From Blautia parvula (GTDB taxonomy: Bacteria > Bacillota > Clostridia > Lachnospirales > Lachnospiraceae), in assembly GCF_020215665.1 (NCBI RefSeq), contig NZ_CP084061.1, positions 3,828,501 to 3,892,500 of the forward strand: a DNA stretch of 64,000 nt. Reading direction: 5' to 3'. The notes below the pieces were generated by a model. The model searched no databases and had not been told where the DNA came from. It was given only the letters and a program-made list of their open reading frames with translations. Each line of letters starts with the position of its first letter. Position 1 is the first letter of the stretch. Positions 49,053 to 62,771 of this stretch are shown here, in pieces. The position numbers and the translations under genes were made by a program.

Positions 49053-49292
49053 TTATTTCATAACATATTCTGCAAGATACTTTTCCGCCTCGTCTGATGA
49101 GAAAAAATCATGTTGCTCTCCGGTTATATATCGAACAGCATCATTCCATTCTTTCACGCTGAAAGTATCAGGGGGCAGCTCTCTCAGTGCATGATGTACA
49201 GCCAAAAAGTTGTTTGCCTGATGTAGATCAGACAAATACATGCAGCCTGCTTTTGCAGACAAGTAATCCAATAATTTCATTGATTCCACCAA
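49053..49292 (-). CDS. small protein, last gene of SipW operon
   Basis: 79 aa from TTG 49292 (or GTG 49289), AGGAGG upstream. Soluble, VESMKLLDYLSAKAGCMYL, no signal or membrane segment. The longer open frame overlapping the upstream gene is rejected. Function unknown; may be a cytosolic partner or regulator. Confidence 0.6.
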   Translation of the reverse strand: MVESMKLLDYLSAKAGCMYLSDLHQANNFLAVHHALRELPPDTFSVKEWNDAVRYITGEQHDFFSSDEAEKYLAEYVMK

Positions 49293-49317
49293 ATGTGTTA
49301 CCTCCTGCTTGTTCAAA

Positions 49318-50370
49318 TTAGGGCTCCCCAGCTGGCGCCGGTGAGGCATCCGTTTCAGACATTTGCAGAGAATCCTCTTCCGACACAGACTCCGATTCCG
49401 TTTCAGGAACTGTTTCCTCCGAAGTCGGTTCAGGTATTGTCTCATCAGACTGGGACTCAGTTTCAGAATCTGATTTCTCTGGCATAGACTCCGATTCAAA
49501 GTCCGAAACAGGTTCATCCGGGATCTCCTGAACCGGCTCACCCGACCCAGACACAACGATTCTAGAACCGTTTGGAATAAGGCTGGCGTGAACTGTTAAA
49601 ACACCGTTTACCAGCTCATAAATAAGTGCTTCACCATTGTTTATCGTCACCGTAACATGTGTGGGTAACGTAAAACCTTCGTCGGCAGTAAATATTACTT
49701 GCAGTCCATCTGAATCCAGAATACTGCTTTGCTGTGTCATATTCTGCAGATCATACTCTGCTTCAGACGGTAACTGTATCGGTGCATTTCCAATGACATC
49801 CCCGGCATGGACGTACTGAATTTCTTCCTGTTTGCCCTCTAATGCGGCGATTTGCCAATCCCCCCAATGTGTTTCTATAGAGAAAATATCTGCCTGCAGA
49901 TCTCCCGCAACTGTCATCCGCTCCGTCACACCATTCTGATAGGTAAAAACAAATGCGGAATCAGCTGTGATTTGATCCGTATAGTACACCATTTGCCGTT
50001 CATTTACCGCATCCCAGAACTTTAAGATGCAGTAACCGGTTGTAGCAGTGCCCGATATTGAAATCTTTACTTCATATGTGCTATTGGCCACAAGAGAGAA
50101 TTCCGCTGGCTCACCACTCACGCTGCGCCGGGTATCGGAAAAATCAGTATCTGCCGATATCACCGAAACGTCGCAGGAGAAGTCTGCCATACTGACATTT
50201 TCCAAGACCCCCAGTGCCGCATCAGTATACCAAGCCCAGCTAGCTCCTATAAAAAAACTGAGGCTTAGCACAATGCCAATAATAGAAGGCAGTAAAAGCT
50301 GTATATATTTTCCGCCTGGCATTGCCTTTCTAAGCTTTTGATTCCATTGTGCATTGTTAATTAGGTACAT
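49318..50370 (-). CDS. SipW-type secreted protein with acidic tail
   Basis: 350 aa from ATG 50370 (GGGAGG 9 nt upstream). Membrane segment then ASWAWYTDAALGVLENVSMADF, the SipW-dependent leader end. Core beta-rich domain about 50-265; C-terminal Glu/Ser/Pro-rich tail (residues about 275-350) with repeats such as SESE and PEPTSEET. No wall-anchor motif. Tail may bind calcium or shield the surface. Probably a matrix protein. Confidence 0.78.
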   Translation of the reverse strand: MYLINNAQWNQKLRKAMPGGKYIQLLLPSIIGIVLSLSFFIGASWAWYTDAALGVLENVSMADFSCDVSVISADTDFSDTRRSVSGEPAEFSLVANSTYEVKISISGTATTGYCILKFWDAVNERQMVYYTDQITADSAFVFTYQNGVTERMTVAGDLQADIFSIETHWGDWQIAALEGKQEEIQYVHAGDVIGNAPIQLPSEAEYDLQNMTQQSSILDSDGLQVIFTADEGFTLPTHVTVTINNGEALIYELVNGVLTVHASLIPNGSRIVVSGSGEPVQEIPDEPVSDFESESMPEKSDSETESQSDETIPEPTSEETVPETESESVSEEDSLQMSETDASPAPAGEP

Positions 50371-50496
50371 GATGTAAAACCTCCCATTTGTTCCTTGTAT
50401 TATACCCAAATGAAGCTATCAAAAGGCATAGAAACAAGACAGTTCCTATACCCTTTGACAGCCCCTCTCCCTAAAGGGAGAGAAACCTGAGATGCT

Positions 50497-51960
50497 TTAC
50501 AGTTTCGCTGTTACACCATCAATAATAATCGTACAGCCCTTGAGGTTTTCGGTATCCGGTTCGGTGTCGTCTAACATGCTGGTTATATTGGATGCCGTAA
50601 GCTTAGTGCCATTGAAATAGCAGTTGTTAATGGTAATGGTAAATCCGGTTGCACCTGCGCCCATTCGGAAATCACCATCAAAAGTGCAATTGGTCAGCGT
50701 CGTGTCACAGTAGGGACGCAGAAAATCATAACCGGCCGTTCCCTTGCCAAACTCCGTGTTATCAAAGTAAGCGCCATTGGCCATCTCGCCGTAAGACGTC
50801 CAGCCGAGCAGCTTGGAATCCTTAACATACAGGCCTAAATCTCCACTGCCGGCATTGAAGGTATAGACTGCATCGATATCGCAATTATTCACATAGATAT
50901 CGCCGCCCTTGCTTTGGGAGTAGATACCGCGGTAAGCGCCGCTAATTGTAGAGTTGGATATCTTGAAAGTCTCACCGGCCGCTAATTTTTCTACGAGGAT
51001 AGACGAATTATTTATGCCGGAACTGCCTCCAGTGATTACTGCATTTCTAATCTCCGCGCCATCTGCTTCGATATTGATGACACTGTTGAAGCCAGACGCT
51101 GTGATGTTCTGTCCGCTGATGGTCATATTGCTGATGGTAACATTTTTATTTGTAACTTTGTACCCATCCCCCGCAGCAGAAAGTGTTGTGTCATCGCCAT
51201 CTACAATTAGTTTTGTCACACCGGTACCTCTACCGGTAATCATAACGCCTTCAGGAATGATCTCAGTGAGAGACATTTCTGAAGCCGTGATTTCCAGAGT
51301 GTCACCTGCCTGTGCCTGAGTCAGAACATCCCTAAATTCTGTCTGTGAACCAACCAGAGTTGTATATTTAGCCTCTGCGTCATACTGATTGTCTTTGCTG
51401 TCGTGTTCTTCCGCGTACTGAGTAGCCATAACAGTAATAGCAATACCACTGACGGTCAGGCCCTGATACTCATTGCCGGCACTTTCTTTCATATGACCAG
51501 AAAGCACAATGGCTTCTGTGCTCTGCCCGGCTGCGGAAAGATGCCCTTCAAAATCTGTCAGATCAGTTTCTTCTCCGCCCACGGTAATCTTCCAGTCAAT
51601 AGCCTCCAGAAGCTTGGCATCACCATCAATCCCAGACACGGCCAGCTTGTACTTGAGCGCAAGGTTTCCGTTGTTCTTTACATAGACCTCTGGCAGATTG
51701 TATGTAACTCCCGGTTCCCAAAGAATAGTTTCCTCCTCACTGCCTTCGGCTTTCACAAAGTCCAATGTTTTCCCAACAAGAGAGTCTCCTTCTTTATTTA
51801 CCAGTTCTACATTTAACGTACCGGCTTCAATGGAGTTTACATTGGTACTCGCATTGTCTGTAAACCATGCGAAGGTAGCGCCAATGAGCATGGCTACACA
51901 CAGAAGCAAGGACATCACGCTCATCAGCAATGTACGTTTTGGATTTCTACTTTTCATCAT
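50497..51960 (-). CDS. SipW-dependent surface protein with beta-helix-like region
   Basis: 487 aa from ATG 51960 (AAGGAG 10 nt upstream). Leader LLMSVMSLLLCVAMLIGATF followed by AWFTDNAST, the TIGR04088-type SipW signal. Residues about 40-185 form a TasA/camelysin-like beta domain (EPGVTYNLPEVYVKNNGNLA); residues about 200-480 carry irregular repeats such as NKNVTISNMTISGQN and NCDIDAVYTFN, read as a right-handed beta-helix of pectate-lyase type. No catalytic residues seen. Confidence 0.85.
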   Translation of the reverse strand: MMKSRNPKRTLLMSVMSLLLCVAMLIGATFAWFTDNASTNVNSIEAGTLNVELVNKEGDSLVGKTLDFVKAEGSEEETILWEPGVTYNLPEVYVKNNGNLALKYKLAVSGIDGDAKLLEAIDWKITVGGEETDLTDFEGHLSAAGQSTEAIVLSGHMKESAGNEYQGLTVSGIAITVMATQYAEEHDSKDNQYDAEAKYTTLVGSQTEFRDVLTQAQAGDTLEITASEMSLTEIIPEGVMITGRGTGVTKLIVDGDDTTLSAAGDGYKVTNKNVTISNMTISGQNITASGFNSVINIEADGAEIRNAVITGGSSGINNSSILVEKLAAGETFKISNSTISGAYRGIYSQSKGGDIYVNNCDIDAVYTFNAGSGDLGLYVKDSKLLGWTSYGEMANGAYFDNTEFGKGTAGYDFLRPYCDTTLTNCTFDGDFRMGAGATGFTITINNCYFNGTKLTASNITSMLDDTEPDTENLKGCTIIIDGVTAKL

Positions 51961-52038
51961 TCTAAATAATCTCCTTGAATTTTGATGACGCTTGTTCGCA
52001 ACATTCTCCATACGAGGGCGGAAGGCCAACGATAGGAT

Positions 52039-53427
52039 TTACTTACTAAATATTGTTTCACCATCAATATTGATGGTGATTCCGGTCACGTTGTAAACCG
52101 AAATTGGTGCGTCATCTGCTGTTACCTCATTACCATTCACCTTCAAGATACAGCCGTTCATATTAATGGTGCAGGCTGAGCGCAGGGAGAATAGATATTG
52201 CTTATTCCCTGTGGTTTCATTGGCCTCGATAATGCAGTTATTGAAAGTCCATTCAGACCCACCGGCAAGCTCATTCACAACTATGGTAGCAAAGTTATTC
52301 CAACCTTCCGCATTGTAGGTCTTGTCATTGTTGCCGATTAGCTTGCAGTTTTCAAAAGTCACCTTGGTATTGGGGGAATGAGTTTGTGCCGCACACCAAC
52401 CGGTCAACGTAGTATTTTTGATGACAGCGTTCACCTTCTGATTCTCGCTGGCAATATTCAGGGCATAGTAGTTTGCAGACACTGAGCAATTATCTACGAC
52501 AATGGTAACATCGCTATTCGCATAAACTGAGATGCCCCGTGTATAGGTTCCGCTTGTAGGACCTACAACATTTACGCCAGAAAGTGTCATGGTGACAGGT
52601 TCATTCTGATTATTTATGTCAATGACACGCTTGTTGTCACCATTTTCAATCGACAGTGATCCGTTCTCACTACCATAAATGGTCACATTCCCTGCAACCT
52701 TAATGGATTCCGGCAACACGATGGATTGAGTCAGGATAACATCTTCCCCTTTTGCAAGTGCTGCCAAAAGTTCTTCCTGGGAAGAAACAGGCGTACCGTA
52801 TTTGGCGTTTTCATCATATGCATTATTGAAGCTATCGCTTTCAACAGTATCCTGCGTAGCTGCAACAGTAATATAAATACCATTTAGCGTCAGCCCCTGA
52901 TACTCGTTACCAGCACTTTCCCGCATATGACCGCTGATTGTGAGGGAAGACAGTTCCTTATCCACCGTGGGAGAACCTGACTCCTGCATGCCTGCAATAT
53001 GGCCTTCATAAGTCGTGAGGTCTACCATCTCTTCACCGTTTTTCAGTGTAAAGTCAATTGCATTCAGCAACTCTGCGTTTCCGTCAAGGCCGCTGATTTG
53101 GATTTTGTACTTTAATGCCAGGTTACCCTTGTTCACAACGCGGAGCAGCGGCAGATTGTATGTAACACCCGGCTCCCAAAGGACCTCTTCGCCTTCAGCC
53201 GCTTTTTGGAAAGCAAGGCTCTCATTTTTTCCAACCGCCGTCCAAGTTTCTCCGTTGTCCTCAGACTTCTGCAGCTCGATATCCAAAGTACCGGCCTGAA
53301 TTAAGTTTACTCCTGTACTGGCATTGTCGGTGAACCATGCGAAAGTGGTACCGATGAGCATAGCTACGCACAATACGATGGACAGCATACTAAAAGATAA
53401 TGCTCGTTTTTGATTTTTGTTCTCCAT
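52039..53427 (-). CDS. SipW-dependent surface protein, beta-helix type
   Basis: 462 aa from ATG 53427 (GGGGGAAG upstream). First ~195 residues nearly the same as the gene at 53444 (MENKNQKRALSFSMLSIVL; EPGVTYNLPLLRVVNKGN). C-terminal about 260 residues unrelated in detail to the neighbour, with repeats like NCSVSANYYALNI and NCKLIGNNDKTYNAEGW. Likely matrix or fibre protein. Confidence 0.87.
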   Translation of the reverse strand: MENKNQKRALSFSMLSIVLCVAMLIGTTFAWFTDNASTGVNLIQAGTLDIELQKSEDNGETWTAVGKNESLAFQKAAEGEEVLWEPGVTYNLPLLRVVNKGNLALKYKIQISGLDGNAELLNAIDFTLKNGEEMVDLTTYEGHIAGMQESGSPTVDKELSSLTISGHMRESAGNEYQGLTLNGIYITVAATQDTVESDSFNNAYDENAKYGTPVSSQEELLAALAKGEDVILTQSIVLPESIKVAGNVTIYGSENGSLSIENGDNKRVIDINNQNEPVTMTLSGVNVVGPTSGTYTRGISVYANSDVTIVVDNCSVSANYYALNIASENQKVNAVIKNTTLTGWCAAQTHSPNTKVTFENCKLIGNNDKTYNAEGWNNFATIVVNELAGGSEWTFNNCIIEANETTGNKQYLFSLRSACTINMNGCILKVNGNEVTADDAPISVYNVTGITINIDGETIFSK

Positions 53428-53443
53428 TATTTCTTCCCCCGCC

Positions 53444-55012
53444 TTATTGTTCGGAAAGATTACTTCCCGTAATCTTAACACCAGGTTTAATTACAGACTG
53501 ATCTAATTCCACTTTCGGAGCATTTTTATACTCTCCTTCTCCTGCAAAGGTGCCACCAGTGATTGTAATATCGAATTGCTTACAATTACTGCCATTCGCC
53601 GTTGTTTTATAATAAAGTCCTGCTCTTGTACCTGTAAAAGTACCGCCAGTTACATTAAATGAAATTTCAGTACTATCTTTTGATTCAGCGCCAAGTTTTG
53701 CACCATCCTTAGCTGAGAAAGAACCACCAGAAATATGAACTGTTCCATTTTTCTGATAGATACCAGCTCCATTACTCCCTCCGGTAAAAGTACCGTCTTC
53801 CACCTTCAGAGTGCCGTGACCAGCCCAGTAAACAGCACAACTATCCCACTCGCTCCCACTCGAGGCATATGTTCCTCCCTTGATTGTTATCATCATATCC
53901 GGGTTAGAAAAGGCTGCAGCTGTGGATATGGCATGTCCCCCTGCCGTAACATTTGTATTCTCAACCGTTACTTTACTGCTCCAATAGCATGCAAAGCCAT
54001 ATGTATTAGACTTAACCGTGGAATTCTTTATAAAACAATTACCATACACCGCCACTGCATAAGCCTTGCTATCACTGTTTGCTTCGATATTGACACTTTC
54101 CAATGTTGCAAAAGCATTGGTTTTAACACACACTGCAGAATTAGCTGATTCCGATTTGTTCGATACGATTGTGCCGTTTCTAATCATAGCCATATCGCTT
54201 CCGGTAACATTTACTGTTCCTGTAAGCGTTTTTCCACCGAGATCCAAGGTTACTGCTTTGGAAAGTTCAAACGTCTCTTCACTCATATCTACGTCTTGTG
54301 TAAGCGAAATAATATCACCCGACTGTGCAGTGTTTATAGCCTCTTCCAATTCACTCGGCTTGCTAACAAAGACTATATTCTCATAATCTGCATTTTGGTC
54401 ATAATTATTGTCATTGCTGTCATGTTCAACAGTATCCTGCGTAGCTGCAACAGTAATATAAATACCATTTAGCGCCAGCCCCTGATACTCGTTACCAGCA
54501 CTTTCCCGCATATGACCGCTGATTGTGAGGGAAGACAGTTCCTTATCCACCGTGGGAGAACCTGACTCCTGCATGCCTGCAATATGGCCTTCATAAGTCG
54601 TGAGATCTACCATCTCTTCACCGTTTTTCAGTGTAAAGTCAATTGCATTCAGCAACTCTGCGTTTCCGTCAAGGCCGCTGATTTGGATTTTGTACTTTAA
54701 TGCCAGGTTACCCTTGTTCACAACGCGGAGCAGCGGCAGATTGTATGTAACACCCGGCTCCCAAAGGATCTCTTCGCCTTCAGCCGCTTTTTGGAAAGCA
54801 AGGCTCTCATTTTCTTCAACCGTCGTCCAGGTTTTTCCGTTGTCCTCAGACTTCTGCAGCTCGACATCCAGTGTACCGGCCTGAATTAAGTTTACTCCAG
54901 TACTTGCGTTGTCGGTGAACCATGCGAAAGTGGTACCGATGAGCATAGCTACGCACAATACGATGGACAGCATACTAAAAGATAATGCTCGTTTTTGATT
55001 TTTGTTTTCCAT
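53444..55012 (-). CDS. SipW-dependent surface protein, beta-helix type
   Basis: 522 aa from ATG 55012 (GGGAGG upstream). Leader and TasA-like domain shared with 52039. C-terminal part contains many turns with NGTIVSNKSE, IKNSTVKSNTYGFA and GGTYASSGSEWDS, a regular beta-solenoid with glycines. Presumably secreted and cleaved after IGTTFA, leaving WFTDNA. Confidence 0.87.
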   Translation of the reverse strand: MENKNQKRALSFSMLSIVLCVAMLIGTTFAWFTDNASTGVNLIQAGTLDVELQKSEDNGKTWTTVEENESLAFQKAAEGEEILWEPGVTYNLPLLRVVNKGNLALKYKIQISGLDGNAELLNAIDFTLKNGEEMVDLTTYEGHIAGMQESGSPTVDKELSSLTISGHMRESAGNEYQGLALNGIYITVAATQDTVEHDSNDNNYDQNADYENIVFVSKPSELEEAINTAQSGDIISLTQDVDMSEETFELSKAVTLDLGGKTLTGTVNVTGSDMAMIRNGTIVSNKSESANSAVCVKTNAFATLESVNIEANSDSKAYAVAVYGNCFIKNSTVKSNTYGFACYWSSKVTVENTNVTAGGHAISTAAAFSNPDMMITIKGGTYASSGSEWDSCAVYWAGHGTLKVEDGTFTGGSNGAGIYQKNGTVHISGGSFSAKDGAKLGAESKDSTEISFNVTGGTFTGTRAGLYYKTTANGSNCKQFDITITGGTFAGEGEYKNAPKVELDQSVIKPGVKITGSNLSEQ

Positions 55013-55138
55013 TATATGACCTCCCTTTATATTTATGAGCACGCTACGGTCCGACGGCAATCAGTTTGCCCTCTGAACCGTAGGTGACCCGCTCTATCTA
55101 TGTAATGGCAAATATCAAAGCTGTAAAGCTCTATTGCT

Positions 55139-56221
55139 CTATTGATTTATGACTGCGCCTTCTTCCACAATAAGTTTATCCGCACTGTAAGCTGATTCCT
55201 TTATGGTCAGTTCCGCATCCTTTGCAACGCAAATTGTACCTGTTATAGTGCAATTACTCAGTGTAACCTTACTGCCACTTAAACATTGCAGCGCCTGCTC
55301 ACCATTGATTGCCATATGCTCCAGTACCAGCTCACTACTTCTGACTTTTATGGCAGAATCACTGATGTTATTTGCGGAAATCGAACCGTTCCGAATCGTG
55401 CTGCTTCCGCTGCTGAGTAAAATACCGTTTGTGCTGCCTGTGCCATTTACAGTGAATTCAAAGCCTTTCAGGTCAATAACAGCGTCATAATCTATCGTGA
55501 GAACAGGCTCTGATCCAGATGCTTCTGCCGCAAAGCTGCCGCTAAATTCAATATTTGGTATACATACTCCCAATATGGCTGCCAACTCTGCCGGAGTTTT
55601 TGCATCTGCCAAATATTCTGCATTCAGGTCGTAATCAGGGCCGGTGATATCTGATTCATGACTAGCCTGTGCCACCGCCACTTTAATACCAATACCTCCC
55701 ACCTCCTTTCCCTGCAATGAATTATCGGCATCTGCACGCATGGACCCCACCAGCACATATAAATCACTCTCGGTTTCACCTTTGAGAATAGGATTCGTTT
55801 CAAAAATAACAGGGTTCGCAGTTCTGTAATTAATCTCGTCTGCTTTCACAAGTCGAAAATAGATGCTCTCCAAATCCGACTTATTCTGATTTTCAAAAAC
55901 GAGGAAGAGACGATATTTAAAGGCCAATGTTCCTGTGTTAGATACCCGGAATGGCTTAGTGTAATAGGTGGCTCCTGGTTCCCAAAGAACCTGCTTGCCC
56001 GCGTCTCCGGCTTGTTGGAACGAAAGTGGAATGTTTCGGATGGAACCCCCATCGGCATCCACCAAATCAACGCAAAAGGTTCCGGCTTCAATATTTCCTA
56101 TAGGTGTCGTTGCATTGTCCCGAAACCACGCCCATGTCGTACCCGCAAGCAAGCTGATACAAAGCAGCATGGAAATGCAGCTCATGATTAATGATTCTTT
56201 TATGTACCTAAGATCCCTCAT
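55139..56221 (-). CDS. SipW-dependent surface protein
   Basis: 360 aa from ATG 56221 (AGGGGAG 7 nt upstream). Leader ISMLLCISLLAGTTWAWF then RDNATTPIGNIEAGTFCVDL. TasA-like domain about 45-200 and a shorter solenoid of about 130 residues (SSGSSTIRNGSISAN, NCTITGTICVAKDAE). 12 nt-scale spacing to sipW. Confidence 0.85.
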   Translation of the reverse strand: MRDLRYIKESLIMSCISMLLCISLLAGTTWAWFRDNATTPIGNIEAGTFCVDLVDADGGSIRNIPLSFQQAGDAGKQVLWEPGATYYTKPFRVSNTGTLAFKYRLFLVFENQNKSDLESIYFRLVKADEINYRTANPVIFETNPILKGETESDLYVLVGSMRADADNSLQGKEVGGIGIKVAVAQASHESDITGPDYDLNAEYLADAKTPAELAAILGVCIPNIEFSGSFAAEASGSEPVLTIDYDAVIDLKGFEFTVNGTGSTNGILLSSGSSTIRNGSISANNISDSAIKVRSSELVLEHMAINGEQALQCLSGSKVTLSNCTITGTICVAKDAELTIKESAYSADKLIVEEGAVINQ

Positions 56222-56233
56222 CGGCATACTCCC

Positions 56234-56992
56234 CTAATGTTCAGCTTCCTTGGTGAGCCCCATTTCCGCCCGCATTTGCTCAAGCTCCTGTATCATGCGC
56301 TGCGCTTCCGCACGCTCGGCAGCAATGCTGTCCCGTTCTTTCTGCATCTCCTCCTGCTGCTGTCGTTTATACTGTCGATATAGATATACTGTGTTGATCC
56401 CCTGCACTGCAATCAACAAAAGAAAGGGAATCAGAATACAGAAGATATAGCCTGGTATTGTTTTTAGAAATAGGAAGAAGTTTCCGATGCCTGCCAGTCT
56501 ATATGAATACTTGCCTTGAACATACTCGTAAGTGACAGGAATTTCATCATCGGTATCGGTAGTTGTACCATAGGTGATAAAGGCTGGAGCTCCCTTTGAA
56601 TCTGTAGTTATTGATCGAATTTTATGGGTAACTGTTTCTCCAAAGCTATCGGTTGCTGTTGACTGGTATGCTATGATGTCTCCCACCTGTAATGTGGCAG
56701 GATCCACGTCCTTTACAAGAATGAGATCGCCGGCTTCAAAATCCGTCGCACTCATGGAATCCGAACGCACAATAAACGCCTTATAACCAAAGAGGTCTCT
56801 GTCATTTCGATCAAAAGTAGTTACAGATACAATGGTGAAAACCATCATTGACACAGCCGCAATGACCAAAAGCAAGATAAAAGTATTTTTTATGATATGT
56901 AAAATCCTTACACCGGGCCTTATGTTTCTTTTGCTTACAGAAGCCCCCTTATCTGTTCTTTGTTTCAGTTTAGTATTCATGATATTATTCAA
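56234..56992 (-). CDS. sipW: ER-type signal peptidase I (SipW-like)
   Basis: 252 aa from TTG 56992 (AAAGGA 7 nt upstream; ATG 56980 possible). First membrane segment about 33-58; catalytic Ser in VRSDSMSATDF and the His (instead of Lys) in ETVTHKIRS place it in the ER/SipW class. A second membrane segment about 180-205 and a charged coiled-coil tail (EEMQKERDSIAAERAEAQRM). It removes leaders of TasA-like proteins; its substrates sit in the same operon. Confidence 0.92.
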   Translation of the reverse strand: MNNIMNTKLKQRTDKGASVSKRNIRPGVRILHIIKNTFILLLVIAAVSMMVFTIVSVTTFDRNDRDLFGYKAFIVRSDSMSATDFEAGDLILVKDVDPATLQVGDIIAYQSTATDSFGETVTHKIRSITTDSKGAPAFITYGTTTDTDDEIPVTYEYVQGKYSYRLAGIGNFFLFLKTIPGYIFCILIPFLLLIAVQGINTVYLYRQYKRQQQEEMQKERDSIAAERAEAQRMIQELEQMRAEMGLTKEAEH

Positions 56993-57524
56993 ACTCCATT
57001 CCTTTGTTATTCTTGGTCTGCACAGCTATTGCGGACAGTTCAAAGGTCAAGGATCCGCTCTGCATAGAATTACCGGCCGTTTCTGGAAAATGAAAACGAA
57101 TCTTCAAATTCTGCCGCTGATCAACCTTCAATACACTCTTAATCGCAGGAGTATTCCCCTTCGTTAAATCCGCCGGTTTGCCGGAAAGCAGCACCTCGCC
57201 ATCTTCATTTAAAATCGTCACATGCAATACATGGCCCAGATTTCCTTCGACTTGATTGAAGTACAGCTTATAATACACAGCCCATGTTCCGTTGTTCTGG
57301 ATATAAAAGGACTTCTCCACTGTCATACCCGGCTCGAAAAGAAATTCATCGGCCGTGATGACAGGTTCGCCATGATTGAAATCGATTCCTATGCCTCCGG
57401 TTTGGAAACAGTTGTCATCCACCTTTAACACGGCGTAAGCCAGAGCAAAACTGGTAATACACAGGCAGAGACACAATAGCACCATTGTCGCCACGCTGAT
57501 AGACAGTTTCTTTTTCTTATTCAC
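56985..57524 (-). CDS. TasA/camelysin-like secreted protein
   Basis: 179 aa from GTG 57524 (AGGAGG 7 nt upstream), overlapping its neighbours by 8 nt each. Leader VATMVLLCLCLCITSFALAY then VLKVDDNCFQTGGIG. The beta domain has EPGMTVEKSFYIQNNGTWAV, matching the EPG...NNG pattern of the other members. No solenoid. Best candidate for the fibre-forming subunit, similar in size to TasA. Confidence 0.78.
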   Translation of the reverse strand: MNKKKKLSISVATMVLLCLCLCITSFALAYAVLKVDDNCFQTGGIGIDFNHGEPVITADEFLFEPGMTVEKSFYIQNNGTWAVYYKLYFNQVEGNLGHVLHVTILNEDGEVLLSGKPADLTKGNTPAIKSVLKVDQRQNLKIRFHFPETAGNSMQSGSLTFELSAIAVQTKNNKGMEFE

Positions 57525-58560
57525 ACCCAGCATCCTCCTTTTTCCGTTTGAAAAATAACAGGAGGAGCAGACCTGCCATAGAGACTGCGCACAATTCAAT
57601 ATACAGTTCAATATTGGATTCGTCACCTGTCTTAGGATTATCCGGTTTATACGGCTTATCTGGATCAATCGGTTCATCAGGTTCACCCGGCGAGCCTTTC
57701 GTGGTATTTACAAAACGAGGAAGGGTGGCATACGCCTTGCCATCCTGTTCATAGGAAACGGTTGTCTGGTAAAAGCTGCCCTCCTGCATTACGGTAATTT
57801 CCACCTTATAGCGAACCGGATCATAGCTGATTTTGGAATCAGTAAACGCCTGCTCTGATATGTAATAGATATAGGTCCCCGAATTTTTAAAATGTAGGAC
57901 ACTAAACTCAATAAGCCCATCGGTATTTTTCACAGTTTGAACTGTATTACCCGAATCATCCTGAAGCAAGAAAGTAAATGCACTGCCGCGAGGGTATTGA
58001 CCATCCAGCACTTTTTCCGCAGCCAGTTTAATCACTGCCGAACCGGGTTCCTCCAAATACCACCAGCGAAAATCCGCTGTCAGCTCCTGGTACATATACC
58101 GTCTGCCGTCCGTGTCTATCTCGTTAATATTTCCAACACTGGTATCCAGATACACCGTGATACGATAAATAAGGCTTTGTTCACTGGATTCCATCCCATA
58201 TTGAACAGAGTTTGGCATATCCCGCATTAGACCATTATATAGTGTCTCGCCTTTATCAGGCAGTTCAATTTTTATGTTTAATACTTCCGCCAGGACTTCA
58301 AAGCCGGGGCGGATATCTGCATGATAATAAAGGGTGATTGCCCTTTTGTGAGATACCTCAATAATAAAATCTTTTGATACAGAATCTCCCGGAAACATAT
58401 TTGTAATACTAAAGGGGATGTTCCCGCTGATATCTGCCTCACTAAGCCGCACGGTAGTTTCACAGCCGTCCGCCGCGAAGGCCGTTGACGCTATTCCAAG
58501 TGTAAGCAGAAGAATCAGCAGTAAACAGCTTATTTGCTGCATGATTTTAGTTCTTTTCAT
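57517..58560 (-). CDS. pilin-like surface protein with NPKTG anchor
   Basis: 347 aa from ATG 58560 (GGGAG 8 nt upstream). Signal peptide ending AFAADG; beta-rich region about 25-170; a FctA/SpaA-type domain (AEKVLDGQYPRGSAFTFLLQ; KNSGTYIYYISEQAFTD), Pro-rich spacer (PDEPIDPDKPYKPDN), NPKTG, membrane segment and KRKKEDAGCE. Classical FctA-type pilins form isopeptide links. It is probably fixed to the wall by a class B sortase. Confidence 0.88.
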   Translation of the reverse strand: MKRTKIMQQISCLLLILLLTLGIASTAFAADGCETTVRLSEADISGNIPFSITNMFPGDSVSKDFIIEVSHKRAITLYYHADIRPGFEVLAEVLNIKIELPDKGETLYNGLMRDMPNSVQYGMESSEQSLIYRITVYLDTSVGNINEIDTDGRRYMYQELTADFRWWYLEEPGSAVIKLAAEKVLDGQYPRGSAFTFLLQDDSGNTVQTVKNTDGLIEFSVLHFKNSGTYIYYISEQAFTDSKISYDPVRYKVEITVMQEGSFYQTTVSYEQDGKAYATLPRFVNTTKGSPGEPDEPIDPDKPYKPDNPKTGDESNIELYIELCAVSMAGLLLLLFFKRKKEDAGCE

Positions 58561-58575
58561 ACACAAATCTCCCAT

Positions 58576-58866
58576 CTATAAAAGCGTCCCATCCTGAACA
58601 CCTTTTTTCAGTCTTCTCTTTAGATTGGATCCCGCCTTAAAGATGACCACATACTTCGGCGCCTTTGGCGTCCGCGGAGACCCCGGCGGCAAAATCTGTT
58701 CTCGCCTCTTAACTAAAAAGACGCCGAAATCCTGGCCAAAATCGACGCTATGGCCTTTCTCAAACTCATTGCAGAGATAGCTGAGAAGGGCATTTGCAAC
58801 AGAGGACACGGTTTCCCCATCCTGTCCAGTTGCCTCACAACAAAATTTTATGATGTCCTGTTGCAC
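58576..58866 (-). CDS. HU-family DNA-binding protein
   Basis: 96 aa from GTG 58866 (GAGGTG 6 nt upstream). HU fold: FEKGHSVDFGQDFGVFLVKRR, then SPRTPKAPKYVVIFKAGSNL. The arm region has PPGSPRTPK rather than the usual NPQTG, so DNA bending may differ. Being the first gene after the riboswitch, it may bind operon or inverton DNA; alternatively it is a general nucleoid protein with new regulation. Confidence 0.85.
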   Translation of the reverse strand: MQQDIIKFCCEATGQDGETVSSVANALLSYLCNEFEKGHSVDFGQDFGVFLVKRREQILPPGSPRTPKAPKYVVIFKAGSNLKRRLKKGVQDGTLL

Positions 58867-58888
58867 TCATCTCACCTCATTATAATTG

Positions 58889-58920
58889 AACAAAACAAAG
58901 CCCCGTCAGGTCTGGCAGGG
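58889..58920 (-). terminator. riboswitch expression-platform terminator
   Basis: Minus strand CCCTGCCA, loop GACC, TGACGGGG (one mismatch), then CTTTGTTTTGTT. Lies between aptamer and the HU start; c-di-GMP binding could decide whether it forms. Confidence 0.75.
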
Positions 58921-58930
58921 AAAATGTACT

Positions 58931-59012
58931 CTCTTTCACCGGCTGCCATATGATTTACATTAAGGCCCTTAGCTTTGCGGATTCCATCTTTCGATGGGCT
59001 TGCATTTGAAAT
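58931..59012 (-). promoter_or_regulatory. c-di-GMP-I (GEMM) riboswitch aptamer
   Basis: Minus-strand features of GEMM-I: GCAAGCCCATCGAAAGATGG with a GAAA tetraloop closing P2, then CGCAAAGCTAAGGGCC, and GGCAGCCGG closing P3. Short P1 from ATTTCA with TGAAAG. Located 65 nt upstream of the HU gene and directly before the terminator. Binding of c-di-GMP should couple the operon to the biofilm second messenger; ON or OFF sense not certain. Confidence 0.85.
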
Positions 59013-59059
59013 CTTCATATACAGTTTGGTTTCCTGCCTGCATTCCATACAGGCGAGGT

Positions 59060-59084
59060 ACATAATTTACATTATGTAGTGAAC
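59060..59084 (+). repeat. left inverted repeat of invertible segment
   Basis: 25 bp beginning ACATAATTTACATTATGT and ending GAAC; perfect inverted copy at 59333-59357. Confidence 0.93.
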
Positions 59085-59132
59085 TACAGCTGAAATCTTT
59101 GCAAAAGAAAAACGGCGAACAGGCATCATACT

Positions 59133-59204
59133 AAAAAAAGGCGCACGAAAGCACGCTCTCGGCTATTTTTTCTAAATTAGCATGGAGAGCGTACTTGTGC
59201 TGCC
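59133..59204 (-). terminator. intrinsic terminator inside inverton
   Basis: Minus-strand stem with arms GGCAGCACAAGTACGCTCTC and GAGAGCGTGCTTTCGTGC-GCC then seven T. In this orientation it blocks transcription coming from the recombinase gene toward the operon; after inversion it points right. Confidence 0.85.
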
Positions 59205-59263
59205 TTTATAAGAACTACTGCTATTTATTATGTTATTGGGAACATTTTGTCAGCGAAAATCGC

Positions 59264-59292
59264 TTGATTTTTATAGGTTTAGGTGATATAAT
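59264..59292 (+). promoter_or_regulatory. sigma-A promoter inside inverton
   Basis: TTGATT at 59264-59269, 17-nt spacer, TATAAT at 59287-59292. Near-consensus. Directs transcription to the right, antisense to the recombinase, in this orientation. Confidence 0.88.
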
Positions 59293-59332
59293 GCGAGTTA
59301 TATCATATATGTATTTCTAATACGGACAGCAA

Positions 59333-59357
59333 GTTCACTACATAATGTAAATTATGT
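59333..59357 (-). repeat. right inverted repeat of invertible segment
   Basis: Begins GTTCACTACATAATGTAA; perfect complement of 59060-59084. Probable crossover site for the neighbouring recombinase. Confidence 0.93.
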
Positions 59358-59379
59358 GGTGTTTTTTTTGACTTTTCCG

Positions 59380-60225
59380 CTAAACTACAAGCCCCAGCCG
59401 CTCAATTTTACGTCGGTGTTCCATTCCTGTGGTCATGATATAGATTCGGGTAGTTTCGATATTACTGTGACCAAGGATGTCCGCTAGCTTAGCAATATCC
59501 TTTTCAATTCCATAAAAAGTCCTTGCAAAAAGCTTGCGTAAATTATGAGGGAAAACTTTACTGGCTTTTACGTTCGCCATCTGACATAGCTTTTTCATTT
59601 CAGCCCATATATTACTTCGATTCATGGGCTTTCCGCTTTTGGTACGGAAAATTACGCCGCTTTGTATGCCGTATTTATTTGTAAAGTCAAACAGCTTCTT
59701 TCTTAAGCTTCCCGGGACAAGAATGGTTCGTGTCTTTCCTTTGCAGGAAATCACAACCTCCCCCTGCTGTACTGCTTCCACGGTAAAATACTGAAGTTCG
59801 GATACCCGGATGCCGCTACTACAAATCGTTTGTAGCAGCAAGCAGAGCCGGGGGTTGTTCCGTGCGGCCTCTACCAACCTATAATATTCCGCCTTGGTCA
59901 GCTCCCGGTCCTCCGCAGAATAAATCCGGCGCTGTGTTTTCAAAGTTTTCACGCGGCACTCGGTGCATTTCAAAAAACCAAGTAGGTTATTGATAGATGC
60001 CAGCATGGAATTAATGCTGCGTACAGCATACCCCTTTTCAACAAGCCCCTGCTTATATTCCAATACCTTTTCTTTTGTGATAGACTGACCCTCCAAGAAA
60101 AGATAAAAAGCATGTGCATCACGGAAATACTTTTCCACTGTTGCTGAGCTCTTTTCTTCTTGAATCAAGTTTTCACGAAAACGTTCTATATCCATTTTGG
60201 ATAATTCTCTCTTTCTCATAGCCAT
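59380..60225 (-). CDS. tyrosine recombinase for the inverton
   Basis: 281 aa. SAM-like N-terminal domain (residues about 10-95) and catalytic domain with Arg in SSGIRVSEL, Lys in CKGKTRTI, HNLRKLFAR, LGHSN and Tyr in TTRIYI. XerC/D-like, complete. Its stop lies 22 bp from the right inverted repeat, and it is transcribed toward it. It very likely inverts 59060-59357. The gene upstream of it (GH31) ends at 60408, so it has its own promoter. Confidence 0.92.
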   Translation of the reverse strand: MAMRKRELSKMDIERFRENLIQEEKSSATVEKYFRDAHAFYLFLEGQSITKEKVLEYKQGLVEKGYAVRSINSMLASINNLLGFLKCTECRVKTLKTQRRIYSAEDRELTKAEYYRLVEAARNNPRLCLLLQTICSSGIRVSELQYFTVEAVQQGEVVISCKGKTRTILVPGSLRKKLFDFTNKYGIQSGVIFRTKSGKPMNRSNIWAEMKKLCQMANVKASKVFPHNLRKLFARTFYGIEKDIAKLADILGHSNIETTRIYIMTTGMEHRRKIERLGLVV

Positions 60226-60407
60226 TACCTCCGTTGACCGTAATTGGATCTCCGCTTATATGTTCCACCATTATTTTATCCAATTTACATATTTAGCAGT
60301 CATAAAAATGACAGAGATACACGGAGGCTCAGACTTCTTTTGCATACAGATTTTAATGGGCAGATCAACAAATGAAAACAAGAAAATAACATTTGTATTC
60401 CTGTTTT
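60226..60407. other. intergenic region upstream of recombinase
   Basis: 182 bp holding the presumed recombinase promoter; no clear -35/-10 pair chosen. No other signal seen. Confidence 0.4.
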
Positions 60408-62771
60408 TTATTTCCCCAGAATCACCTGCTCCCCTTCCGCTGCAACAACAGCGCTTCTCCTCTCCTTATCGTACTGCACCGTTCCTCCGCTTATGCTCCG
60501 GATTTCAGGAACATTGTTAAGTACATATGTTATCCTTTCATTTCTCCCACAACTAGACAGATATATCTTATCTTTATCCGCATATCCCCTCACATTCAGC
60601 ACAATATTACCTTCTTTGTCGGGGATCCGGCATTCTGCTTTCTGTCCCTCCCGCAATTCATAGATACCGATCTGCACATTTTCAGTGAAAGAATACCCGG
60701 CTGTTTTTTCATTGCTCCCCATCGGGAGAAGCGAATTCTCGGCCACAAATAAAGGCAGAGAATGATAATCGTATATTTCCCGGTACCAGCGTCCTCCTTC
60801 TTTCCGTTCTCCGTTCAGAAGGTGCGTCCACACACCTTTCGGCAGATAATATTCCCCGATCCCCTCTTTATTAAAAATCGGAGCTACCAGAAGACGGTCT
60901 CCAAGCATATACTGCATATCGAGATATTTCACTGCAGGGTCATTTTCAAATTCCAGGATCATTGGCCGCATCACAGGAATTCCCGTTTTGTGTGACTCCA
61001 CCGCCATACTGTAGATGTATGGCATCAGCTTCAATTTGAGTTTCGTAAACTCTCTGCACACTTCCACAGATTCTTCGTCGAACAACCATGGCACCCTGTA
61101 GCTCTTGGAGCCATGTAGTCTGCTGTGAGTGGAAAGAAGCCCGAATTGCAGCCATCTTTTGTATACATCGGCATCGGCTGCCCGTTCAAATCCACCGATA
61201 TCATGGCTCCAGTAACTGAAGCCGGAGAGCATAAAGGAAAGGCCGCCTCTCAATGATTCTGCCATAGATTCATATGTGCCTGTACAGTCGCCTCCCCAGT
61301 GTACGGGGAATCTTTGACCGCCCACCGTCGCACTTCTGGCGAATAAAACTGCCTCCTTTTCTCCTTTTTCTCTCTTTAGCAATTCAAATACCGTCTGATT
61401 ATACAATAATGTATAATAATTATGCATTCCCCATGCATCCGCTCCGTTTGCATAAGTCACATCAACAGGAATTCTTTCACCGAAATCTGATTTAAAACAA
61501 TCGACTCCCATATCCAGCAGTTCTTTCAGTTTTTCCTGATACCAGATCACAGCCTCAGGGTTCGTAAAATCAATGACTGCCATTCCAGGCTGCCAGTTAT
61601 CCACCTGCTTTACGCCCAAACCATCTGCGCGCATTAGAAAATACCCTTTTTTCAACCCTTCCCTGAAGAATACCGTTCCCTGTGCTACATAGGGATTAAT
61701 CCATACGCATATTTTCAACCCTTTGTCTTTATACCGCTTTAGCATTCCCCTTACATCCGGAAATGTTTTCTCATTCCATTTAAAATCGCACCAGTGCAGG
61801 CCCCTCATCCAAAAGCAGTCGAAATGGAATACGTCAAACGGAAGATCCCGCGCTTTCATCCCCTCGATAAATGAGTTAACCGTTTTCTCATCATAATCCG
61901 TCGTGAAGGAAGAACTCAGCCAGAGTCCGAACGACCATGCCGGAGGAAGTGCCGGTTTGCCCGTCAGACTCGTATAGTGCTCAAGTACTTTTTTCATAGA
62001 GCTTCCGCCAATCACATAATAACGCATCTCCTCTCCTTTTACGGAGACGCCGACTGCTTCTACCTTTTCGCTCGCAACCTCAAAGGACACGTCTGTGCTG
62101 TGATCCACATAGATTCCGTAATTTTTATTCGTTATATAAAACGGAATATTTTTGTAACTAATCTGCGAAGAGGTTCCCCCATCCTCGTTCCAGCAGTCTA
62201 CAGTCTGACCGTTTTTTACAAATGCGGTAAACCTTTCACCAAGACCATAGACACATTCTCCTGCTGCCAGCGAAAACTCTGAGACAATGTAAGGATTGTA
62301 GTCCTCAGCAAGATAATTCGTCTCCGGATACTTGGTTGAATTTTTTCTGTCATGTCTCATGTATCCCACATTTTTAAACCCACATGATGTCATATCTTTC
62401 CCGCTTCTTTTATAGCTGATATAGAACTCTTTGAGCCCCACATGTACACTCACATTCCCTGCTGACATCACCGCCTCATCCTCGCTGATGTCTACATTTA
62501 CGATACATTTTTCCCTATTCAGCATAAACCGGGGTTCTCTCTTTTCGTATCCTTCAAAATGAAAACATCTTACCGAAATAATATCCTCATCTGCTGAGGT
62601 AAACTCAAACGTCAGCGTTCCGACGTCCAATGCGCACGCGCGATTGCAGATGGTCCGGAACGGAGCAGTCACCCTCATGCCGTTTTCTATTTCTTCCACT
62701 TCGTACGCCTGTACCGCGTAACATGCGTGAGCGGCCTCGCTCTTTTCCCAGAATCCCTCTGTAAATTTCAT
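60408..62771 (-). CDS. yicI: GH31 alpha-xylosidase / alpha-glucosidase
   Basis: 787 aa. N-terminal beta-sandwich, then (beta/alpha)8 barrel with nucleophile Asp in DCFKSDFGERIPVD and ARSATVGGQRFPVHWGGD further on (acid Asp in GGD region), and C-terminal beta domains. Close to YicI-type alpha-xylosidases that cut xyloglucan oligosaccharides such as isoprimeverose. Cytoplasmic, no signal peptide. Overlaps GH3 gene by 4 nt, suggesting joint xyloglucan or plant oligosaccharide breakdown. Confidence 0.9.
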   Translation of the reverse strand: MKFTEGFWEKSEAAHACYAVQAYEVEEIENGMRVTAPFRTICNRACALDVGTLTFEFTSADEDIISVRCFHFEGYEKREPRFMLNREKCIVNVDISEDEAVMSAGNVSVHVGLKEFYISYKRSGKDMTSCGFKNVGYMRHDRKNSTKYPETNYLAEDYNPYIVSEFSLAAGECVYGLGERFTAFVKNGQTVDCWNEDGGTSSQISYKNIPFYITNKNYGIYVDHSTDVSFEVASEKVEAVGVSVKGEEMRYYVIGGSSMKKVLEHYTSLTGKPALPPAWSFGLWLSSSFTTDYDEKTVNSFIEGMKARDLPFDVFHFDCFWMRGLHWCDFKWNEKTFPDVRGMLKRYKDKGLKICVWINPYVAQGTVFFREGLKKGYFLMRADGLGVKQVDNWQPGMAVIDFTNPEAVIWYQEKLKELLDMGVDCFKSDFGERIPVDVTYANGADAWGMHNYYTLLYNQTVFELLKREKGEKEAVLFARSATVGGQRFPVHWGGDCTGTYESMAESLRGGLSFMLSGFSYWSHDIGGFERAADADVYKRWLQFGLLSTHSRLHGSKSYRVPWLFDEESVEVCREFTKLKLKLMPYIYSMAVESHKTGIPVMRPMILEFENDPAVKYLDMQYMLGDRLLVAPIFNKEGIGEYYLPKGVWTHLLNGERKEGGRWYREIYDYHSLPLFVAENSLLPMGSNEKTAGYSFTENVQIGIYELREGQKAECRIPDKEGNIVLNVRGYADKDKIYLSSCGRNERITYVLNNVPEIRSISGGTVQYDKERRSAVVAAEGEQVILGK

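Follow-up and report, generated by a model that had tools for sequence, protein, structure and literature searches.

Genes and features of the locus

The stretch of DNA analyzed (the window, 64,000 nucleotides of the Blautia parvula genome) contains a short segment bounded by inverted repeats, a tyrosine recombinase gene at its right end and an operon read leftwards from its left end (Table 1). The two repeat arms are 26 bp each and 100% complementary, and they are separated by 246 nt, giving a segment of 298 bp in total. A preliminary description of this DNA, made from the sequence alone, had reported two perfect repeats of 25 bp enclosing 298 bp; the perfect match and the total length stand, whereas the arm length is 26 bp. 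A comparison of region 59000-59420 with the window's own genome (G000, a single contig of 6,247,046 bp) revealed no second match at E <= 0.001. The adjoining recombinase gene is complete, as had been described, and its reading frame ends 22 nt from the right repeat. The encoded protein contains the motifs GIRVSEL, CKGKTR, HNLRK, LGHSN and TRIYI, which we take to hold the catalytic residues.

Table 1. Positions of the features of the switch locus in the window
Feature	Position	Strand	Details
Operon-side (distal) inverted repeat	59060-59085		recombination core ACATAATTTACATTATGT at 59060-59077
Recombinase-side (proximal) inverted repeat	59332-59357		recombination core ACATAATGTAAATTATGT at 59340-59357
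Predicted promoter TTGATT-17-TATAAT	59264-59292	+	TG before -10 (extended -10); points at recombinase 3' end
Strong predicted intrinsic terminator inside segment	59133-59204	-	points at operon; -33.7 kcal/mol, z -6.7 (fold of 59134-59204), T7
Recombination-site hairpin with T8 (59362-59369)	59336-59369	+	intrinsic-terminator-like; -12.7 kcal/mol, z -6.4
Tyrosine recombinase, presumed flipper of segment	59380-60225	-	281 aa; PF00589 5.7e-21; SAM-like N domain
c-di-GMP-I (GEMM) riboswitch-like aptamer in leader	58931-59014	-	RF01051, 33.5 bits (gathering score 35)
Weak hairpin and T-rich tail after aptamer	58891-58920	-	possible expression platform; GCUUUG can pair with aptamer CAAAGC
Divergent HU/IHF-like DNA-binding protein	58576-58866	-	first operon gene; PF00216 1.4e-5
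FctA/Spy0128-type isopeptide pilin-like protein	57517-58575	-	cell-wall sorting motif (LPXTG)
Camelysin/TasA-like (Peptidase_M73) protein	56985-57686	-	PF12389 1.9e-6; true start probably inside ORF
SipW-type signal peptidase	56234-56992	-	TIGR02228, 62.1 bits (cut-off 51.85)
Four secreted proteins with SipW-type signal peptides	50497-56227	-	55139-56227, 53444-55060, 52039-53481, 50497-52029
ORFs at operon end	49053-50409	-	49318-50409 and small overlapping ORF ending at 49053

The operon leftwards from 58866 had been called a SipW surface operon, and the matches to TIGR02228, TIGR04088 and PF12389 bear this out: a SipW-type signal peptidase is encoded together with SipW-dependent substrates. 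The peptidase scored 64.7 bits against NF046067, the Bacillus SipW model, which is below the cut-off of 190, and gave no Pfam match at E <= 0.01. Among the four secreted proteins, three exceeded the TIGR04088 cut-off and one fell 0.1 bit under it, three were over the PF12389 cut-off, and two matched PF13229 below its cut-off and are beta-helix-like. Searches of Pfam and NCBIfam at E <= 0.01 assigned the ORF at 49318-50409 to no family; a small ORF (49053-49556, minus strand) overlaps its 3' end in another frame. When 299 same-family genomes were searched at E <= 0.001, the HU/IHF-like gene, which could feed back on recombination, matched only the window's own copy. Its candidacy as a factor shared by such switches was dropped, as blastp (1e-5) also found no match in the downstream ORFs of the loci collected by then.

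A family of recombinase-linked cassettes

Close relatives of the recombinase (E <= 1e-60) were detected in 59 of the 391 sampled genomes of the class Clostridia and in 72 of 397 sampled genomes of the same family, with the window's own genome counted in both. From the fetched loci, which were a part of all matches, 105 with distinct recombinases were kept. An exact inverted repeat of at least 14 bp was found 3' of the recombinase gene in 92 of these 105 loci, so that repeats and gene are linked across the family. In six of the 13 loci lacking an exact repeat the contig ends within 205 bp, and L049 is interrupted by Ns; imperfect or extra core sites are present in L140, L169 and L055, L112 has a single site, and L130 and L074 showed no convincing pair of sites 3' of the recombinase.

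The family core site is ACATAAT-N4-ATTATGT, with variants in L045, L047, L079 and L083, among others. The spacer of the core took 53 forms in 90 loci and was self-complementary in only one of them, and such varied, non-self-complementary spacers are as expected for inversion. Scanning G000 with the core pattern, allowing up to one mismatch, gave ten places, nine of which are ends of five recombinase-linked invertons and one a lone site, whereas a control pattern gave 0 matches; apart from the lone site, no orphan inverton with the core was found in this genome at that tolerance. A pattern scan of viral contigs yielded no relative of the recombinase. Besides the window locus, G000 holds four further recombinase-inverton cassettes (L066, L067, L068 and L069), whose cargo comprises a CBM/beta-helix protein, a GH31 enzyme, a helicase-associated-domain protein and a small protein weakly resembling the RNA polymerase alpha CTD. 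At locus L169 (genome G473), core-like sites stand in a row at offsets 7, 80 and 273 from the recombinase stop, which suggests nested or multi-site invertons. Near the contig end, L037 and L126 each have two core sites in the same orientation with identical spacers, at distances of 94 and 37 bp, respectively; this may be an arrangement of deletion type or an assembly artefact.

SipW genes were found downstream in 11 of 29 loci whose recombinase was at least 55% identical to that of the window and in none of 43 below this line, which was drawn after seeing the data; only loci with at least 2 kb downstream were counted, using an HMM built from four SipW proteins. One of the 11, L140, the closest SipW-linked relative, lacks an exact repeat, and its recombinase carries one in-frame stop. 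When the SipW label was mapped onto a tree of 83 recombinases, 6 changes were needed (at least 5 of them forced by starred branches) vs 10.5 in shuffles, and 0 of 500 shuffles were as low. The link between SipW and the recombinase is therefore real, and the cargo seems to have been gained and lost. Elsewhere, the cargo 3' of the invertons includes CBM/beta-helix proteins, a GH31 enzyme, SLH proteins, a SpaA-type pilin-like protein, a MACPF protein and a CpsB-type capsule gene, according to a survey in which 24 proteins were scanned and 10 had no Pfam match.

The predicted promoter of the segment and its orientation

The rightward promoter that had been noticed inside the segment was found again, so that the inverted repeats flank a predicted outward-facing promoter. 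The only other sigma-70-like match in 58600-60600 lies at 60378, upstream of the recombinase, and at the scan threshold no other promoter-like site facing the operon was detected between the segment and the first gene. In this AT-rich stretch hexamer matches were no more frequent than chance (2 observed vs 4.9 expected). A generic hexamer match is not significant on its own; the weight of the promoter call comes from the comparison within the family, for which a scoring matrix of general base frequencies was used. Scored within its inverton, the window promoter was above 20 of 20 dinucleotide shuffles. Across the family, the best promoter exceeded all 20 shuffles in 50 of 90 invertons and at least 18 of 20 in 64 of 90. 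In 80 of 90 invertons the distance between its -10 element and the repeat in front of it was 20-60 nt, vs 19% in dinucleotide shuffles. The -10 element of the window promoter is 39 nt from the repeat, which equals the median of the confident calls in the family.

Inversion was observed directly among relatives. Two Mediterraneibacter MAG contigs (L053 and L054) have flanks that are 99.945% and 99.525% identical and a 277-bp inverton that is 100% identical in reverse. Diverged homologous invertons were also found in opposite orientations, namely L066 and L071 vs L077 (the window's genome and two genomes of the same genus) and, in other Clostridia, L095 vs L098 and L177; the other homologous inverton pairs share one orientation. 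The recombinases of the loci with opposite orientations are about 49-54% identical to that of the window. One genome per species was sampled, and both orientations were seen in relatives and the sequenced one alone at the window locus.

The direction of the promoter places 66 of 90 loci in the OFF and 24 in the ON state; for the confident calls (66 loci) the numbers are 49 and 17, and for the SipW loci with an exact repeat (n = 10) they are 9 and 1. The window locus had been read as OFF, that is, as having no segment promoter directed toward the operon and being shielded by a terminator, and the anatomy supports this reading.

Predicted terminators inside the segment and at the recombination site

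The strong leftward terminator of the preliminary description was recovered inside the segment (Table 1). A terminator placed opposite the promoter was considered as a rule of the family and rejected, being present in just 50 of 90 loci; the internal-terminator shield is accordingly not conserved. The count was 29 of 44 (p 0.049) at a score difference above 3 and 17 of 24 (p 0.06) above 6, and with confident promoters only it was 33 of 66, or 18 of 31 (p 0.47) at a difference above 3. An initial count with a looser score, in which the flipped pair L053/L054 entered twice, had given 27 of 42 invertons.

The recombinase-side site also resembles an intrinsic terminator, with a T8 tract on the strand that would be transcribed from the OFF-state promoter. 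A T-run of at least 5 follows the recombinase-side site on its outer side in 43 of 90 loci vs 8 of 88 for the operon-side site (Wilcoxon 4e-9), and occurs on the inner sides of the sites in 2 of 90 and 8 of 90 loci. Matched windows after other stop codons contained such a run in 73 of 684 cases (Fisher 1e-15 against the recombinase-side site); these p-values are too small because the rows are related by descent. Hairpins were more stable at sites with the T-run than at those without it (-10.2, n = 42, vs -7.0, n = 46). The idea that proximal hairpins are generally stronger than distal ones was not borne out (mean -8.53 vs -8.26, p 0.69, n 88, with the reverse complement of the proximal core used as the distal core). 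These results suggest that the recombinase-side site probably has a second role as a terminator, which would end transcription from the OFF-state promoter before it enters the recombinase gene in antisense. At the window locus such dual use is likely; in the family it is common and, since the T-run is absent from 47 of 90 loci and the mean hairpin energy is equal on both sides, not universal.

The leader between the segment and the operon

The leader carries an element similar to a c-di-GMP-I riboswitch (E 2e-4 over the whole genome), scoring below the RF01051 gathering score, whereas two other c-di-GMP-I copies in G000 reach 74.2 and 68.0 bits. The residues G20, A47 and C92 (Vc2 numbering) contact the ligand according to the part of PMC4744006 consulted. 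In the CM alignment, the leader keeps the GAAA tetraloop and A47; at the presumed position of C92 the CC is replaced by AA, and U stands at the presumed G20, so that the three contacts are not all present. This residue mapping is our own, made from that statement, and may be off by one, given that a strong copy (L181, below) has A at the G20 position. Either the element has decayed or it is a variant for a different ligand. The following hairpin, a candidate expression platform, folds weakly (58878-58934, shuffle z -0.24). Elsewhere in G000, the strong c-di-GMP-I riboswitch of L181 (G000:C1:4146768-4146858), with matching hits in G008 and G009 (L180 and L182), has A at the presumed G20 position, which would suggest a c-AMP-GMP-type variant.

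A riboswitch as a general second layer of these switches was rejected. No Rfam match at the gathering score was found in eight loci (seven SipW loci and L141), and none at a relaxed E <= 0.05 in six of the eight; the scan covered the SipW loci other than L070, L163 and L164. Twelve further loci gave three unrelated Rfam matches, all away from the leader between the inverton and the first gene.

Discussion

Taken together, the locus is very probably an invertible promoter cassette of the fim kind, OFF as sequenced, placed before a SipW/sortase surface operon. In this mechanism the adjacent tyrosine recombinase would bind the two inverted ACATAAT-N4-ATTATGT sites and invert the segment between them. 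In the OFF state the segment promoter would fire toward the 3' end of the recombinase gene, and its transcript would probably be halted at once by the recombinase-side site, whose palindrome and outside T8 would form an intrinsic terminator, while the strong internal terminator would keep transcripts that arrive from the recombinase side out of the operon. Once the segment is inverted, the same promoter would face the operon and transcribe the leader and the HU-like, FctA, TasA-like, SipW and SipW-substrate genes. Only part of a clonal population would then make sortase- and SipW-dependent surface proteins, perhaps fibres. The sequence anatomy, the conservation across the family, the flips in relatives and the SipW association are observed, whereas the inversion of the window segment, its dependence on this recombinase, the activity of the promoter and terminators, and the surface-fibre function are inferred.

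The preliminary description was right in the main and had overlooked the terminator-like recombinase-side repeat with its T8 and the riboswitch-like leader. It had also stated that flipping turns the internal terminator toward the recombinase. After flipping, however, the terminator would face the antisense strand of the gene and would therefore not shut the recombinase off.

Among known systems, E. coli fimS with FimB/FimE is the closest: there too a tyrosine recombinase gene stands directly beside an invertible promoter, before a surface-fibre operon. The fimS invertible promoter is about 300 bp long, and the fim cargo consists of chaperone-usher pili. In contrast, a single recombinase was found here, the sites differ from those of fim, the cargo is of the clostridial SipW/sortase type, and the terminators look intrinsic, one of them being formed by the recombination site itself. 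A further parallel is that the fimE transcript meets an orientation-dependent terminator, which in that system is Rho-dependent (PMC5386303, in the part available).

The cwpV, flg and cmr switches of C. difficile (RecV) are similar by description, being clostridial tyrosine-recombinase switches for surface traits. The cwpV switch had been named as an example of the same logic, a comparison that misfits because that switch has no promoter inside and acts by an intrinsic terminator (PMC2784873, as far as its accessible text goes), whereas a promoter is predicted inside the window segment. The accessible portions of PMC5386303 and PMC2784873 describe the flg and cwpV switches as acting after transcription start, without a switch promoter, and that of PMC8844915 describes the cmr switch as holding a promoter. 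Moreover, RecV acts on more than one switch; the invertons described here each adjoin a recombinase of their own. At flgB and cmrRST inversion is combined with a c-di-GMP riboswitch upstream of the switch (PMC8844915 and PMC5386303, from the sections at hand); the window's aptamer-like element lies between the switch and the operon and is c-di-GMP-I-like, unlike the class II riboswitch of Cmr.

PhaseFinder-type invertons and the Bacteroides PSA promoters are likewise invertible promoters, often near surface genes (partial texts of PMC11892184 and PMC10939037), and the window cassette differs from such gut invertons in being recombinase-linked, clostridial and equipped with its own site consensus. 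None of the words "Blautia", "SipW" and "TasA" appears in the main text of PMC11892184. The operon itself resembles Bacillus tapA-sipW-tasA and Clostridium SipW/BsaA in having a SipW-type signal peptidase beside proteins with SipW-type signal peptides, and differs from them by the FctA/LPXTG protein, the HU-like gene and the invertible promoter upstream. Both are biofilm operons; beyond the family models this comparison is drawn from general knowledge. Jiang 2019 is reportedly the founding survey of PhaseFinder-type invertons. In the open-licence literature we found no invertible SipW switch in Clostridium and no phase variation by a recombinase-linked invertible promoter in Blautia, an absence that is weak evidence of novelty. 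The fim-type invertible promoter is already known as a kind, and it is the combination of parts that is new.

Other explanations of the same anatomy were weighed. In a switch of the cwpV type, the operon would be read from a promoter upstream of the segment, as part of the recombinase transcript, and inversion would merely move the internal terminator into or out of its path, the internal promoter being incidental. The very strong terminator facing the operon, the recombinase gene lying immediately upstream in the same direction and the precedent of cwpV itself, which works by such a terminator (PMC2784873, in its available part), speak for this explanation. We nevertheless consider it unlikely, as the segment promoter outscores every shuffle and keeps its distance from the repeat throughout the family, whereas the direction of the terminator relative to the promoter is not conserved.

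A cassette whose anatomy is real but which is locked or decayed, so that flipping has ceased in this lineage and the operon stays permanently off, would account for the single orientation observed at the window locus, for which one genome per species was available. The excess of OFF loci in the family (66 of 90) points the same way, and OFF may therefore be very dominant. Since the repeats are perfect over 26 bp, the recombinase is intact and a flip was seen between near-identical assemblies of a relative, we regard such a loss of switching as distinctly improbable. Finally, the inverted repeats could have nothing to do with the recombinase, having arisen by chance or marking the ends of a mobile element. 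Nothing beyond their presence favours this idea, which is already contradicted by the comparative data, namely the exact repeats 3' of the recombinase in 92 of 105 loci, the shared core with varied spacers in the 90 loci examined and the flips in relatives, and its probability would be close to nil.

Returning to the fim-like cassette, a more elaborate form of it may be put forward tentatively. Across a clostridial family of cassettes that is widespread, the recombinase-side repeat would serve both as crossover site and as terminator; the very short OFF RNA, ending at this site, would shield the recombinase gene from being read in antisense, and transcription of the site may be coupled to the rate or direction of flipping; and at the window locus the variant GEMM aptamer, with its altered ligand contacts, would act in series with the switch, so that the operon would need both a heritable flip and a small-molecule signal. 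The second-messenger gate added by the aptamer-like leader is the weakest part of this explanation.

If the fim-like mechanism is true, biofilm-type surface proteins in a gut lineage would be made by a heritable subset of cells, and clostridia would reuse one cassette for many surface genes (SipW operons, CBM/beta-helix and SLH proteins, a pilin-like protein and a capsule gene). The dual-use site, if real, would be a simple and checkable design rule by which a recombinase gene shields itself from the switch that it serves. Since the core ACATAAT-N4-ATTATGT is shared and stands beside the recombinase, these switches should be easy to find and to lock genetically, and the phase variation of clostridial surfaces would thereby become directly testable.
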